DNA from: Planctomycetaceae bacterium
Lineage (GTDB): Bacteria > Planctomycetota > Planctomycetia > Planctomycetales > Planctomycetaceae
Direction: 5' to 3'
Length of the DNA stretch: 64,000 bases
Assembly: GCA_014762625.1 (NCBI GenBank)
Contig: JABURQ010000098.1
Span: 1 to 64,000, forward strand
Shown: positions 3,485 through 10,902 of the stretch, piece after piece
Layout: each line of letters starts with the position of its first letter
How positions within the stretch are numbered: the stretch's first letter is position 1
The notes under the pieces: model-generated
Database searches by the model: none
Told to the model about the DNA's origin: nothing
The model's input: the letters and a program-made list of their open reading frames with translations, nothing else
Position numbers and translations under genes: made by a program

Positions 3485-5299
<1,815 letters not shown>

Positions 5300-5426
5300 C
5301 TCGATATCCTTGGTCAGCAAGCAGACAGAAGTGTCTGGGAAATGATGTGTCGTGATTGCTTCATGTTAGCCCGGAAGTGGCCGAAAGCAAAGTGGCCACT
5401 GGACTTCCCGTTTACAACTGCGCATG

Positions 5427-5460
5427 AAAAACGACCGATCCCTGACTTCGGGACGGTCGT
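5427..5460 (-). terminator. Intrinsic terminator of the bL37-like gene
   Basis: On the minus strand, ACGACCGTCCC pairs with GGGATCGGTCGT (one bulged base) around a 7-base loop and is followed by TTTTCATG. It sits 29 bases downstream of the small basic gene and upstream of thiC, so it probably separates the two transcripts. Confidence 0.7.
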
Positions 5461-5488: not shown

Positions 5489-5587
5489 TTAGAGCTTGAA
5501 CTTCTTCCGTTTGGCTTTACGGGCTTTCGCGGAAGCAGGACGACGTCCGTGATTCGCTTTTTTCAATTTGCGTTGTGTCTTGGCCAT
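5489..5587 (-). CDS. 32-residue basic protein, bL37-like ribosomal candidate
   Basis: The frame reads 32 residues with about half Lys/Arg. Residues 1-3 are MAK and residues 10-17 are KANHGRRP. The C-terminus is a basic run ending KRKKFKL. A strong Shine-Dalgarno AAAGGAG lies about 8 bases before the ATG and an intrinsic terminator follows the stop, so this is very likely a real monocistronic gene. As I remember it, the 24-residue mycobacterial ribosomal protein bL37 also starts MAK and carries KANHGKRP; that match suggests a ribosomal protein with an added basic tail. The alternative is another small basic RNA- or DNA-binding protein. The gene's existence is well supported; its identity is inference. 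Confidence 0.7.
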   Translation of the reverse strand: MAKTQRKLKKANHGRRPASAKARKAKRKKFKL

Positions 5588-5764
5588 GATGCGGCTCCTT
5601 TATGAACTACGTTCCTCTATTAGGAACAATCTGACGGTGAGTTAAATCGGATCGTCTATTATAGAGGTTTTCGGCATATTCTGAAAGTCAACCGGAGCCC
5701 TTTTCGGTCCCCTCTTCCGAATCCGAGCTTCAGGATTTCGGGTTTGTCCGGCGAAAGGTCCGTG

Positions 5765-7114
5765 TCATTGGGATTTTGCGGCTTTCTTTTTCTTCTTGGC
5801 CGTCGGGCCTTTCGCACTCGTCTCGCTGAGATATTCGATTTTCGCGTAATGATCGAGTTTTGCCTGGAGCATCTGGCGGACCGCTTCGACGTCCGGGCTC
5901 AGGTTTTTTTCGGCGAGATTCTTCTGTTCGAGACGGTCCGCTGCGACGTGATAGAATTCGCCGTTGGCGTAGAGCTTGTACTCGGCATTGCGAGCGAAGA
6001 CCTCCGCGTTGGGGCCGCCGTTGCGGGCGTACCACATATAGATCGCCTCGCGATGAGGAGTCGAATTCCCTTTGAGGAGCGGGAGAAAACTATAGCCGTC
6101 GAAGGGGATGTCCTGCGGGAGGTCGATATCGGCGGCATCACAAATCGTGGGAAGGATGTCACTAAGGTCGGCAATCGTCTCGATCACCTGACCGGATTCA
6201 ATATTTCCGGGCCAACTCACGATGCACGGCACCCGGTTCCCGCCGTCCTTCATACTTCCTTTGTTGCCGGCGACTTTTCCGAAGGTGGTGTTGGTGACGA
6301 TCGGTTTATCGGTGCCGTTATCGCCGATGAAAATCAACAGCGTGTTTTGACGGATGCCGAGGCGTTTCAGATTTGCGTCGATTTTGGCGACGGTTTTATC
6401 GACGTAGCTGACCATATCGGCGAAATATTGCGGATCACCTTTGTAACTTTTCGACCCGCGCGATTTCGGATCCCAGTCGTCCGAGTCGGGAGTCGGGCAG
6501 AACGGACAGTGCGTCAGCGCCATCGGATAATAGGCGAAGAACGGTTTGTCTCGATTGAGGGCGATGAAGTTATTGATGTAATCGCTGAAAAGGTCGGAGG
6601 AGAACTCGCCGTCGTTGTAATCGACTTCCTGACCGTTGAGTTCGAGACGCGGGTTGGGATAACGGGAGTCGAACCCGTCGTCGGCACGGCCTCGGGTATG
6701 TTGCCACAGGAGTGACTCTTCAAACCCGAAATGCTGGGGAGCATCGGGTTCGTTGCCGAGTTGCCATTTACCGGCAACGCAGGTTTTGTAGCCTGCGTTT
6801 TTGAAAATGTGGCCGAACGTTTTCTGATCACGGGCGAGGCGCCCGAAGCGGATGTAGTTCCGTTTGTTGGAGAGTCCGGTCATCAGTTTCACACGGGTCG
6901 GCGTGCAGATCGGCTGGGCGTGGAAGTGTTCGAAGCGGGCTCCCTCGGCGGCGAGCTTGTCGAGATAGGGAGTCTCGTAATCGAGGCTGCCGTCGCAACT
7001 GAGGCATTCGTACCCGAAGTCGTCCGCCATGATGAGGACGATATTCGGTCGTTCGGCGGCGGAAAGAATGTGAGAGGAGAGAACAATCAGGACGGTGAGA
7101 CAGTATTTGAGCAT
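5765..7114 (-). CDS. Secreted sulfatase (arylsulfatase family)
   Basis: Encodes 449 residues. A signal peptide (hydrophobic to about residue 19, ending SAA) is followed by RPNIVLIMADDFG, which carries the metal-binding Asp pair D31/D32. The sulfatase motif CTPTR starts at C70, the cysteine normally matured to formylglycine. FIGDNGTDKP supplies the second metal-binding DN pair. Members hydrolyse sulfate esters, often of polysaccharides, outside the cytoplasm. GAGGTC about 7 bases before the ATG supports the start. The C-terminus ends in a Lys-rich tail (five consecutive Lys). No formylglycine-generating enzyme is encoded nearby. The exact substrate cannot be told. Confidence 0.93.
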   Translation of the reverse strand: MLKYCLTVLIVLSSHILSAAERPNIVLIMADDFGYECLSCDGSLDYETPYLDKLAAEGARFEHFHAQPICTPTRVKLMTGLSNKRNYIRFGRLARDQKTFGHIFKNAGYKTCVAGKWQLGNEPDAPQHFGFEESLLWQHTRGRADDGFDSRYPNPRLELNGQEVDYNDGEFSSDLFSDYINNFIALNRDKPFFAYYPMALTHCPFCPTPDSDDWDPKSRGSKSYKGDPQYFADMVSYVDKTVAKIDANLKRLGIRQNTLLIFIGDNGTDKPIVTNTTFGKVAGNKGSMKDGGNRVPCIVSWPGNIESGQVIETIADLSDILPTICDAADIDLPQDIPFDGYSFLPLLKGNSTPHREAIYMWYARNGGPNAEVFARNAEYKLYANGEFYHVAADRLEQKNLAEKNLSPDVEAVRQMLQAKLDHYAKIEYLSETSAKGPTAKKKKKAAKSQ

Positions 7115-7198: not shown

Positions 7199-8611
7199 TC
7201 AATCTTTGGGTGGTTCATCCGCGGGTTTGACGCGGGACGCCGACTCGGGAGCCAGCAGGAACAGCACCTGAACGGGCCGGGCGGGTGATTTGGCGACGCT
7301 TCGTTGTTTGACGGAAGGTCTTTCGAGGGCTCCGCCGACGCCTGCTGGTGGAACAGATTTCTGGTCCAGTTCTTTTTTGAACGCTCGGGCCTGATTGCGG
7401 GTGACTTTGTCTCCCTGTATGAAGCTGTTGGAAATCGAAGGGAGCCCGGCTCCCTGAACAATCATCTGGTTTCCGAGTTCTTCCGGTAAGCGCAATTGGA
7501 CCTGGCGATTCGAGTTTAGCCTGGCGAGACTCATCTCTGATTTGGCAGGTGTTAATTCAGGGAGAGGGGGAGGTGCCGGAAGATCGGCGAGCGACTTCTG
7601 CTCGGTCAGCGATTCCCGTTCTCCGTCGAGTTTGAGGGCCGGTAGATTCTCTTTCAATTCGACCAAGCCTTGTTCTGCGGAAGCCACTCCGTCCGAGATA
7701 CCCCAGGCATAACCTTGTTCTGCGAAGTAGGGATTGAGATTCTGGGAGTCGAGATTGGCGGAGACCAGCATCTCCTCGATATTCATATCTTCCTGAAGTT
7801 CGCGGAGGGCGGTGGCCATTTTTTCCTGGTCCGCTTCGACGTAAACCGCGTAGAAGTCGCCGTTCTCGTTTTTCAAAGCGTCCGCATTTCCCGACTCCGC
7901 CGGAATGCTCAAGTCAGAAAGCAGGATCTGCATCGAGTTCAGGACCTCTTCACGATCGACAACCGTTAATTGGACGACCACTACGCGGTCACCTTGAAAC
8001 TGCCATCCCTCGACGGTGTCGCCGATTTCAGCAGTTTTGAGATCCTGCGGATCGATCAGTTTCATGAGACCGTTATCGCCGAGTTCCATCGACAACCGAT
8101 CCGGAGTTGCTCCCAGAGTCGCTGCGAGTTTGGCACCGGACATTTCGGTCCCTTCGAGAGCAACGGGTTCACCCGCCTCGAAAAACAAATCGTTTGAGTC
8201 GGCTTCCTCGGCCGTGGAGTCGGCGTGCGACATGGCGATTTCCGCATTCTCGGAATCCTGAGGGCTGAATTGGCGGAAAGCGAGAAACAGAATCGCGACC
8301 GCTGAGATCAGAGAGGCGGTGGAAATGATCCAGCGACGGCTGGATGACGGCGTGGAGCTCGCAGGTTGCGCGATGGTTTTGCCGTGGAGAGATTCACGCT
8401 CCGCCTGGGCCATGACACGGCTCGCCAGATCGTTGGGAGCTTCTTCCGTCGGCAACCCTTTGAGTAATCCGCTCAGCTTTTGGTAGGATTCCAGCTCGGC
8501 CCGAGCTTCGGGAGAGGATTCGAGGAGCGCATCCACTTCGGCTCTCTCCTCGACGGAGAGACGATCATCGACGTAAGCCGAAATCAGATCGTGGGAAGGT
8601 GAATTGCTCAT
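7199..8611 (-). CDS. Anti-sigma-factor-like transmembrane protein
   Basis: Encodes 470 residues. The first 75 residues (HDLISAYVDDRLSVEER...LLESSPEARAELESY) match the helical N-terminal domain of anti-sigma factors that hold ECF sigma factors, but the zinc-binding His-x3-Cys-x2-Cys motif is absent. A single transmembrane segment lies at about 92-112. The remaining 350 residues are predicted extracytoplasmic, with a proline-rich stretch (PAPPPLPEL) and no domain I recognise. Planctomycete anti-sigma genes usually follow an ECF sigma gene; here no sigma gene precedes it (upstream is a 407-base gap and a divergent gene), so the partner must be elsewhere. The role as a sigma regulator is inference from the N-terminal domain. 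Confidence 0.65.
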   Translation of the reverse strand: MSNSPSHDLISAYVDDRLSVEERAEVDALLESSPEARAELESYQKLSGLLKGLPTEEAPNDLASRVMAQAERESLHGKTIAQPASSTPSSSRRWIISTASLISAVAILFLAFRQFSPQDSENAEIAMSHADSTAEEADSNDLFFEAGEPVALEGTEMSGAKLAATLGATPDRLSMELGDNGLMKLIDPQDLKTAEIGDTVEGWQFQGDRVVVVQLTVVDREEVLNSMQILLSDLSIPAESGNADALKNENGDFYAVYVEADQEKMATALRELQEDMNIEEMLVSANLDSQNLNPYFAEQGYAWGISDGVASAEQGLVELKENLPALKLDGERESLTEQKSLADLPAPPPLPELTPAKSEMSLARLNSNRQVQLRLPEELGNQMIVQGAGLPSISNSFIQGDKVTRNQARAFKKELDQKSVPPAGVGGALERPSVKQRSVAKSPARPVQVLFLLAPESASRVKPADEPPKD

Positions 8612-9018: not shown

Positions 9019-10902
9019 ATGATGAATGTTGGCTTAGTGTCCTTGTTGATGACCGGTTTGCTGGGAGTGAATTCCGGGCTGGTGGGATTTCCCGCCGGTG
9101 AGCGTGATGACGCCTATCTGAACTGTGCCCCCGCCGAGACGCTGATCTATGCAGAGTGGTCGACTCGCGGAGAGGGAGAAGCGGGAGCGGACGGAGTTGA
9201 CGGGCTGGTTGCTGATCCCGAAGTGACCGCGATGACGGCCAATCTGAAATCCGCAATTCTGAAATTCATTGAGAAACAGGAAGGCGGCCCCCCACCTGCT
9301 TTGAAAGAGAATCTTCCTCCGCTGATCCTGGATCTCGTCAATCGCTCCGGATGTCTTTATGTCAGTTACACTCCTCCCGAGATTGTCGAGGAGCGACTTC
9401 AGGAAGAAGTCTGGCTCGATATCGCCGGCGGGGCGAGCGCTACCCTGATTATCAACGGCGGCGACCAGGCCGACGAGACCGAAAAACATCTGCTCGCTTT
9501 GATGGCGCTGGCTCCTCTGGGTCAGGCCCCTCCCAAATCGATCGAGGAGATTGCGATTCCGAATCCCTTCGGTCTTGAAGTGACCTTAGACCGCGAAGGG
9601 GATTATTTCATTCTGGCTCTCGGCGAGGGATCTCTAGAGCGCGCTCACGCGGGATTGAAAGGAGACGTCAAAGGGTTGGGAGAGTCTGAAGCATTTGCGA
9701 AGAATTATGACGCGTTCAAAATGGAACGTGTCGGAGGTTTGTTCTGGTTGGATATCGGCAGCATTCGCGATGAAGGGTTGAAGCTCGCCGGACCGTTTGG
9801 GCAAATTGCCCAAGTCATGCTACAACAACTCGGCATCGATCAACTCAATAACTGTCTGACGGTTTCGGGAGTGATCGACGGACAGATAGCCACGCGGACC
9901 CACGTCGAAACGGGAGGCAAAACCGATGGTGTGTTGGCGTTGATTGCGGGACGCGGATTGACTGCCGATGACTTCCAAAACATTCCGGGCGATTGCGACT
10001 TTCTAACTTCGTTTACGGTGGATTTGCCGTTGATTCGCTCGACGGTGGTGAGTTTGATCGAACAGATACAACCGCAGTTGATGGAGAACTTTGATGCGAT
10101 CGAGGCCCAGGCGGAGAGCGAGTTGGGCTTCTCGATCGAAGAAGGATTTCTCAAGGCGTACGGGCAGCGAATGACGGTCTTCGATTCTCCCGCTGCGGGA
10201 GGACTATTGGCCACGTCTTTAACGTTCGCCGTCGAAGTCGTGGCTGCGGAGAAGGCTGATCCGATCTTCGAGCAACTGATGGTGCTACTGAAAGCTTCCT
10301 TACCGGGCGGGCGCGGAGATGAATTTTCCCGACGCGGCGTGTTTCTGGAACAGCGTGAGTTCATGGGGCAGACGATCTATTTCGTCAACACCATTGGAGA
10401 TGACGTCCCTCTGGCTCCGGCGTTTTGCCAGACCGACAAACAGCTTCTGGTTTCTCTACACCCGCAGTCGCTGAAAGCGCATTTGCGTTTTCTCAAAGCA
10501 GAGGAGGCTTCCTATGCGGATCGATTCCAACCGGAAGGTCCGGAGGGGGCCGTCATCAGTTATTCCTCTTTCTCGGCGGACAAAATGGTGGAATTGGTGT
10601 ACGCCGTACTTCCGTTCGTCGCTCAAGTCGGCTTGAGCAACACTCAGCGGGAAGGGTTCGAGTTCGACGTTTTTTCGATTCCCTCCGCCAAAGCGGTTCT
10701 ACCCTACATGAAAGAAGCTCGCAGTTGGGTGGTGCGGACCGAATCGGGGCTGTTACTTGAAACCCGGTCGTCATTGCCGACTGCGTTCACGTCAATTCCC
10801 GTCAATGCGATCTTCATGATGGCTCCGGTCAGAAGGAGAGCTCGATTTGCGCCTGCTGGAGATATCATTATCGAAGAGGACACGGTTCAAGAAGCCAACT
10901 GA
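9019..10902 (+). CDS. Large secreted hypothetical protein
   Basis: Encodes 627 residues. The start (ATG ATG) follows AGGGAGAAG. The N-terminus is a short hydrophobic leader (about residues 3-24), so export is likely. The rest is mixed alpha/beta with no catalytic motif I can name; segments such as AETLIYAEWS, DYFILALGEGSLERA and KTDGVLALIAGRGL resemble the loosely related planctomycete exported proteins that some databases relate to DUF3352. The gene at 23794-25539 has a similar overall plan and may be a distant paralogue. It ends one base from the end of the convergent lipoprotein gene. Function unknown. Confidence 0.75.
   Translation: MMNVGLVSLLMTGLLGVNSGLVGFPAGERDDAYLNCAPAETLIYAEWSTRGEGEAGADGVDGLVADPEVTAMTANLKSAILKFIEKQEGGPPPALKENLPPLILDLVNRSGCLYVSYTPPEIVEERLQEEVWLDIAGGASATLIINGGDQADETEKHLLALMALAPLGQAPPKSIEEIAIPNPFGLEVTLDREGDYFILALGEGSLERAHAGLKGDVKGLGESEAFAKNYDAFKMERVGGLFWLDIGSIRDEGLKLAGPFGQIAQVMLQQLGIDQLNNCLTVSGVIDGQIATRTHVETGGKTDGVLALIAGRGLTADDFQNIPGDCDFLTSFTVDLPLIRSTVVSLIEQIQPQLMENFDAIEAQAESELGFSIEEGFLKAYGQRMTVFDSPAAGGLLATSLTFAVEVVAAEKADPIFEQLMVLLKASLPGGRGDEFSRRGVFLEQREFMGQTIYFVNTIGDDVPLAPAFCQTDKQLLVSLHPQSLKAHLRFLKAEEASYADRFQPEGPEGAVISYSSFSADKMVELVYAVLPFVAQVGLSNTQREGFEFDVFSIPSAKAVLPYMKEARSWVVRTESGLLLETRSSLPTAFTSIPVNAIFMMAPVRRRARFAPAGDIIIEEDTVQEAN

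Follow-up and report, generated by a model that had tools for sequence, protein, structure and literature searches.

Family matches, conservation and profile searches make it very probable that the product of a 32-codon gene near one end of the window is ribosomal protein bL37 in its planctomycete form. The window is the whole 64,000-nucleotide stretch of a Planctomycetaceae genome that was analysed. The NCBIfam model NF047429 ("ribo_Plancto_bL37", 50S ribosomal protein bL37), which is of the equivalog type, matches the product with 63.4 bits (E 1.7e-17, cut-off 40) over 1-31 of its 32 positions. This score means that the planctomycete form is a family already named, and the window gene is an ordinary member of it. 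The mycobacterial model NF047428 gives 20.7 bits, below its own cut-off of 30, and Pfam has no match to the protein. In searches of PDB chains, the single window sequence gives no better than E 0.087 for M. tuberculosis bL37. Profiles made solely of planctomycete sequences find it at E 0.0014 (profile A1) and at E 1.3e-5 (profile A3, chain 7kgb_v), with unrelated chains at 0.36 and above in the A3 search. The NF047429 score and the reach of these profiles to M. tuberculosis bL37 thus make the window protein a bL37, in the tailed subfamily named by NCBI. It is outside the actinobacterial subfamily and inside the planctomycete one, having 32 residues and a tail versus 22-24 residues and no tail.

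A first-pass annotation made from the sequence had proposed a bL37-like gene here, describing the mycobacterial protein as a 24-residue chain with KANHGKRP. This description is correct, as 7kgb_v has 24 residues, and the reading is supported by the matches to NF047429 and, with A3, to the PDB bL37 chain, which answer its call for a profile search. The annotation was also right to propose a planctomycete form, but the NCBI model already names one.

The gene is solitary and has its own predicted expression signals. The features are as follows.

5489..5587, minus strand: bL37 gene, 32 codons plus TAA (open reading frame, NCBIfam match, conservation, profile searches)
5595..5601, minus strand: Shine-Dalgarno sequence AAAGGAG, 7 bases 5' of the ATG (read from the sequence)
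5611..5627, minus strand: small leader hairpin GTTCCT-aatag-AGGAAC, just 5' of the Shine-Dalgarno sequence (folding energy not significant)
5658..5685, minus strand: putative sigma-70-like promoter TTCAGA-16-TATAAT, 10 of 12 consensus positions matched (consensus match only)
5427..5460 (about), minus strand: intrinsic terminator, 28 bases 3' of the bL37 stop codon

The frame runs from the ATG at 5587-5585 to the TAA at 5491-5489, and the product is MAKTQRKLKKANHGRRPASAKARKAKRKKFKL. It contains 15 lysines and arginines (47% basic residues) and no aspartate or glutamate, and the KANHGRRP core occupies residues 10-17. The terminator stem is ACGACCGTCCC/GGGATCGGTCGT, followed by a run of T; the region 5475-5425 folds with -21 kcal/mol (z -3.3), and none of 200 shuffles folds equally well. 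The frame with its AAAGGAG, the terminator, the very basic product and the position of the motif had all been pointed out in the first-pass annotation, and each of these observations stands. In the promoter-like pattern the -10 element TATAAT lies at 5663-5658 and the -35 element is weak; the pattern occurs once in the stretch, with 0.4 occurrences expected.

The leader hairpin was considered as an autoregulatory element and rejected: paired changes are seen by eye in genus-mates, but the mean folding z over 25 leaders is -0.38. Two genus-mates (L109 and L110) have GTCCC/GGGAC at a roughly matching leader position. The neighbours of the gene are a sulfatase gene on one side (5765-7114, minus strand) and thiC on the other (3485-5320, minus strand). 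A conserved operon was rejected as well; in the short flanks compared, thiC is a neighbour in two genus-mates only and the sulfatase gene in none. Elsewhere in the window, a frame of 470 residues (7199-8611, minus strand) shows two matches at its start, to RseA_N at the cut-off and to zf-HC2 below it, a domain layout that might be like that of an anti-sigma factor. A frame of 627 residues (9019-10902, plus strand) has no Pfam match at E <= 10.

The bL37 gene is conserved within the family and is under purifying selection. Lack of conservation was one of the two outcomes named beforehand as refuting the proposal, and the frame is found in 75 of the 81 genomes of the window's family (66 of the 69 of good quality) and in all 21 genomes of the same class within the phylum sample. 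The median dN/dS in the family is 0.08 (median dN 0.13, median dS 1.18), based on 45 usable pairs out of 91; L008 and L009, which deviate in length, yielded no pairs within the family, and L015 was excluded. Third-position changes dominate in these pairs (1527, versus 575 and 433). Short open frames are common, 180 of at least 20 amino acids overlapping the first 12 kb alone, but the family match, low dN/dS and conservation already refute a chance open frame, whose probability is negligible.

The start and the tail of the protein are also regular features. The 122 loci include duplicates, so counts are given for 83 distinct proteins; L114 and L117 are outside these statistics because the motif expression matched neither. 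All 83 start with ATG, and 52 have a Shine-Dalgarno-like tetramer upstream, where the background rate is 0.124. RP is followed by a tail of 11-18 residues (median 15) with a net charge of +4 to +9, compared with 1-2 residues in the mycobacterial chains, which agrees with the longer basic tail that had been predicted. In the A3 alignment the core residues A, N, G and R do not vary, but later members read by eye deviate even there (for example KKANGRTRP and KANHGRKP).

Within Planctomycetota bL37 is detected in many of the sampled genomes, and divergent forms escape the existing model. Among 294 sampled genomes of the phylum, NF047429 detects bL37 in 73 at E <= 0.001 and A1 in 84 at E <= 0.01. 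The wider A3 profile finds it in 117 at E <= 0.1, including 81 at E <= 2.1e-6; the A1 and A3 counts include the sequences from which each profile was made, and these necessarily match it. Independently of the profiles, a search for an exact DNA pattern is positive in 77 of the 294, several of them by chance (G200, G133, G116). Nothing detectable as bL37 by A3 at this sensitivity occurs in over two thirds of the 294 genomes, and negatives in large genomes are soft, since at most 26-27 first-pass candidates were scored per genome in the profile searches. By eye, four of ten weak hits are plausible divergent bL37 (G016, G256, G035, G036) and six are not; a further weak hit, in G041, also looks real, making five. 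The DNA pattern search uncovered divergent forms in further planctomycete families, such as MAKKVSKRRSRIRKANHGARPASGGKKVNLRGAGKK. Divergent planctomycete forms are present at loci L128-L133, L134, L138 and L140-L143, and those scanned are below the NCBIfam cut-offs. Some of these forms have a longer, mycobacterial-like N-terminal part. When 12 other members from within the phylum were compared with NF047429, 10 scored below the cut-off, including two without any match.

Searches beyond these genomes found no mobile copies. There are no bL37 matches in 72,556 plasmid records, and four pattern stretches in viral contigs yielded no confirmed relative. A contig-wide pattern scan across genomes found at least 596 stretches; among the matches listed, 13 were confirmed, 12 of them planctomycete and the thirteenth carrying the protein of phylum member G179, so the scan gives nothing firm on bL37 in other phyla. 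The other extra actinobacterial protein, bS22 (PF08213), was not found in the window's genome.

The absence of uL30 is relevant to the origin of bL37. A study of the Borrelia ribosome proposed that a long uL30 gave rise to bL37 and a short uL30 (partial text of PMC10618245), so that bL37 would be a piece split off from the longer protein. In Borrelia the N-terminal extension of uL30 occupies the bL37 pocket, according to the same partial text. However, the uL30 domain (PF00327) was found in none of the 294 planctomycete genomes, of which at least 81 have bL37, while 13 of 14 control genomes were positive; comparison of the lists identifies the remaining control as Synechococcus elongatus. In the spc operon of the window's own genome (C152, L127 1950-1954), the end of uS5 is followed by a 3-base gap and then uL15 with no rpmD between them, whereas E. 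coli has rpmD, the gene for uL30, at this place. The genome comparison shows bL37 persisting in Planctomycetota where uL30 appears to be gone, and with uL30 in 0 of 294 genomes bL37 would work here without its proposed parent. In addition, no uL30 chain from PDB is among the matches of the bL37 profiles at E <= 10. An origin by splitting therefore seems unlikely, though uL30 might have been lost after a split. The literature searched does not state that planctomycetes lack uL30; this absence may well be known from comparative surveys outside that search.

A mitochondrial ribosomal protein of Tetrahymena looks like an unrecognised bL37, judging from its sequence. All bL37 profiles have mL102 (6z1p_AQ) as their top match in PDB, with E 1e-7 for A1 and 4.2e-8 for A3; profile A2 contained mL102, and its match was discounted. 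The KKANHGARPCS core and basic tail of mL102 align with planctomycete bL37 over 27-28 residues, while mL102 differs in having 109 residues and being mitochondrial. Its KKANHGARP stretch falls at about residues 68-76. Its 29-residue core scores 40.4 bits against the planctomycete profile, and the best of 5000 shuffles scores 12.7. The Tetrahymena mitoribosome paper (6z1p) places mL102 between the central protuberance and the L7/L12 stalk with its C-terminus heading to the A-site tRNA, and this site, as described, would fit the bL37 pocket (H39, H40, H41/H42, H72, H89). That paper terms mL102 newly identified, and the word bL37 is absent from its text. Work on plant mitoribosomes also names mL102, and no paper in the literature searched connects the two names. 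Other mitoribosomal chains in PDB have no significant match to the bL37 profiles; mL184 (9g6k) was rejected as a relative, since its E values of 1.1 and 2.6 are not significant and it is missing from the A3 list.

The mL102 result also bears on whether the product is ribosomal. A small basic peptide with a KANHG motif could instead bind nucleic acids or act like an antimicrobial outside the ribosome. The high proportion of basic residues would suit such a peptide, and disk assays with C. acnes bL37 show inhibition of Gram-positive bacteria (partial text of PMC10085706). However, the conserved residues match ribosomal bL37 and are not merely basic, as the gap between the mL102 core and its shuffles indicates, and nearly every positive genome has a single strong match. 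A non-ribosomal peptide is thus very improbable.

Homology to bL37 of known structure suggests how the planctomycete protein would be placed. In mycobacteria and Cutibacterium, bL37 lies in a pocket of 23S helices H39-H42, H72 and H89 beneath the tip of 5S rRNA and acts as a brace for H89 behind the peptidyl transferase centre (partial texts of PMC5876184 and PMC10085706). By homology, the KKANHGxRP core would be buried in this pocket, steadying H89 and the 5S tip, and we infer the placement of the protein in the planctomycete ribosome, its site and its role from this likeness. The basic tail of about 15 residues would form a short helix on neighbouring rRNA outside the pocket, given that the 24-residue form already fills it. 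An AlphaFold (AF2) model of modest confidence (mean pLDDT 73, pTM 0.33) has a helix in the tail at residues 20-29 and none at the N-terminus; in mycobacterial bL37 about 13 N-terminal residues form a helix (partial text of PMC5876184). More speculatively, the tail may be directed to the A-site tRNA as in mL102, or into the vacant uL30 site. Overall, a tentative proposal, somewhat short of an even chance, is that bL37 is an old, independent ribosomal protein and not a fragment of uL30. It would have been kept in Actinobacteria, in many Planctomycetota and, as mL102, in the mitochondria of ciliates. Where a tail is present, the C-terminus would extend beyond the pocket, either to the vacant uL30 site or to the A-site tRNA, linking H89, the central protuberance and tRNA.

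The bL37 gene exemplifies a class of genes that is overlooked by length cut-offs. The brace of H89 is of practical interest, since several antibiotics have their sites close to this helix. As far as searched, three results are new: divergent planctomycete bL37 below the NCBI cut-off, the occurrence of bL37 together with the absence of uL30, and the link to mL102. In the literature bL37 is described as mycobacterial or actinobacterial (partial texts of PMC10618245, PMC10085706 and PMC5876184) and, within the literature searched, is never paired with planctomycetes. A phylum that is positive for bL37 and negative for uL30, together with a mitoribosomal protein that shares the core, bears on both the actinobacterial restriction and the uL30-split proposal.

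Compared with known systems, the window gene is closest to the NF047429 family, from which it differs in nothing essential. The N-terminal extension of Borrelia uL30 and mammalian mL63 resemble bL37 in occupying the same or an analogous region (partial text of PMC10618245), but neither has a sequence match in the PDB lists of the bL37 profiles. Actinobacterial bL37 (NF047428; PDB 5o60, 7kgb, 8crx) shares the KANHGKRP core, the basic character and the very short length. It differs in its 22-24 residues, in having almost nothing after RP, and in its longer N-terminal part, with about 14 residues before KAN in M. tuberculosis versus 9 in the window protein. Actinobacterial bL37 also coexists with uL30, both being found in C. 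glutamicum, unlike the situation in Planctomycetota.
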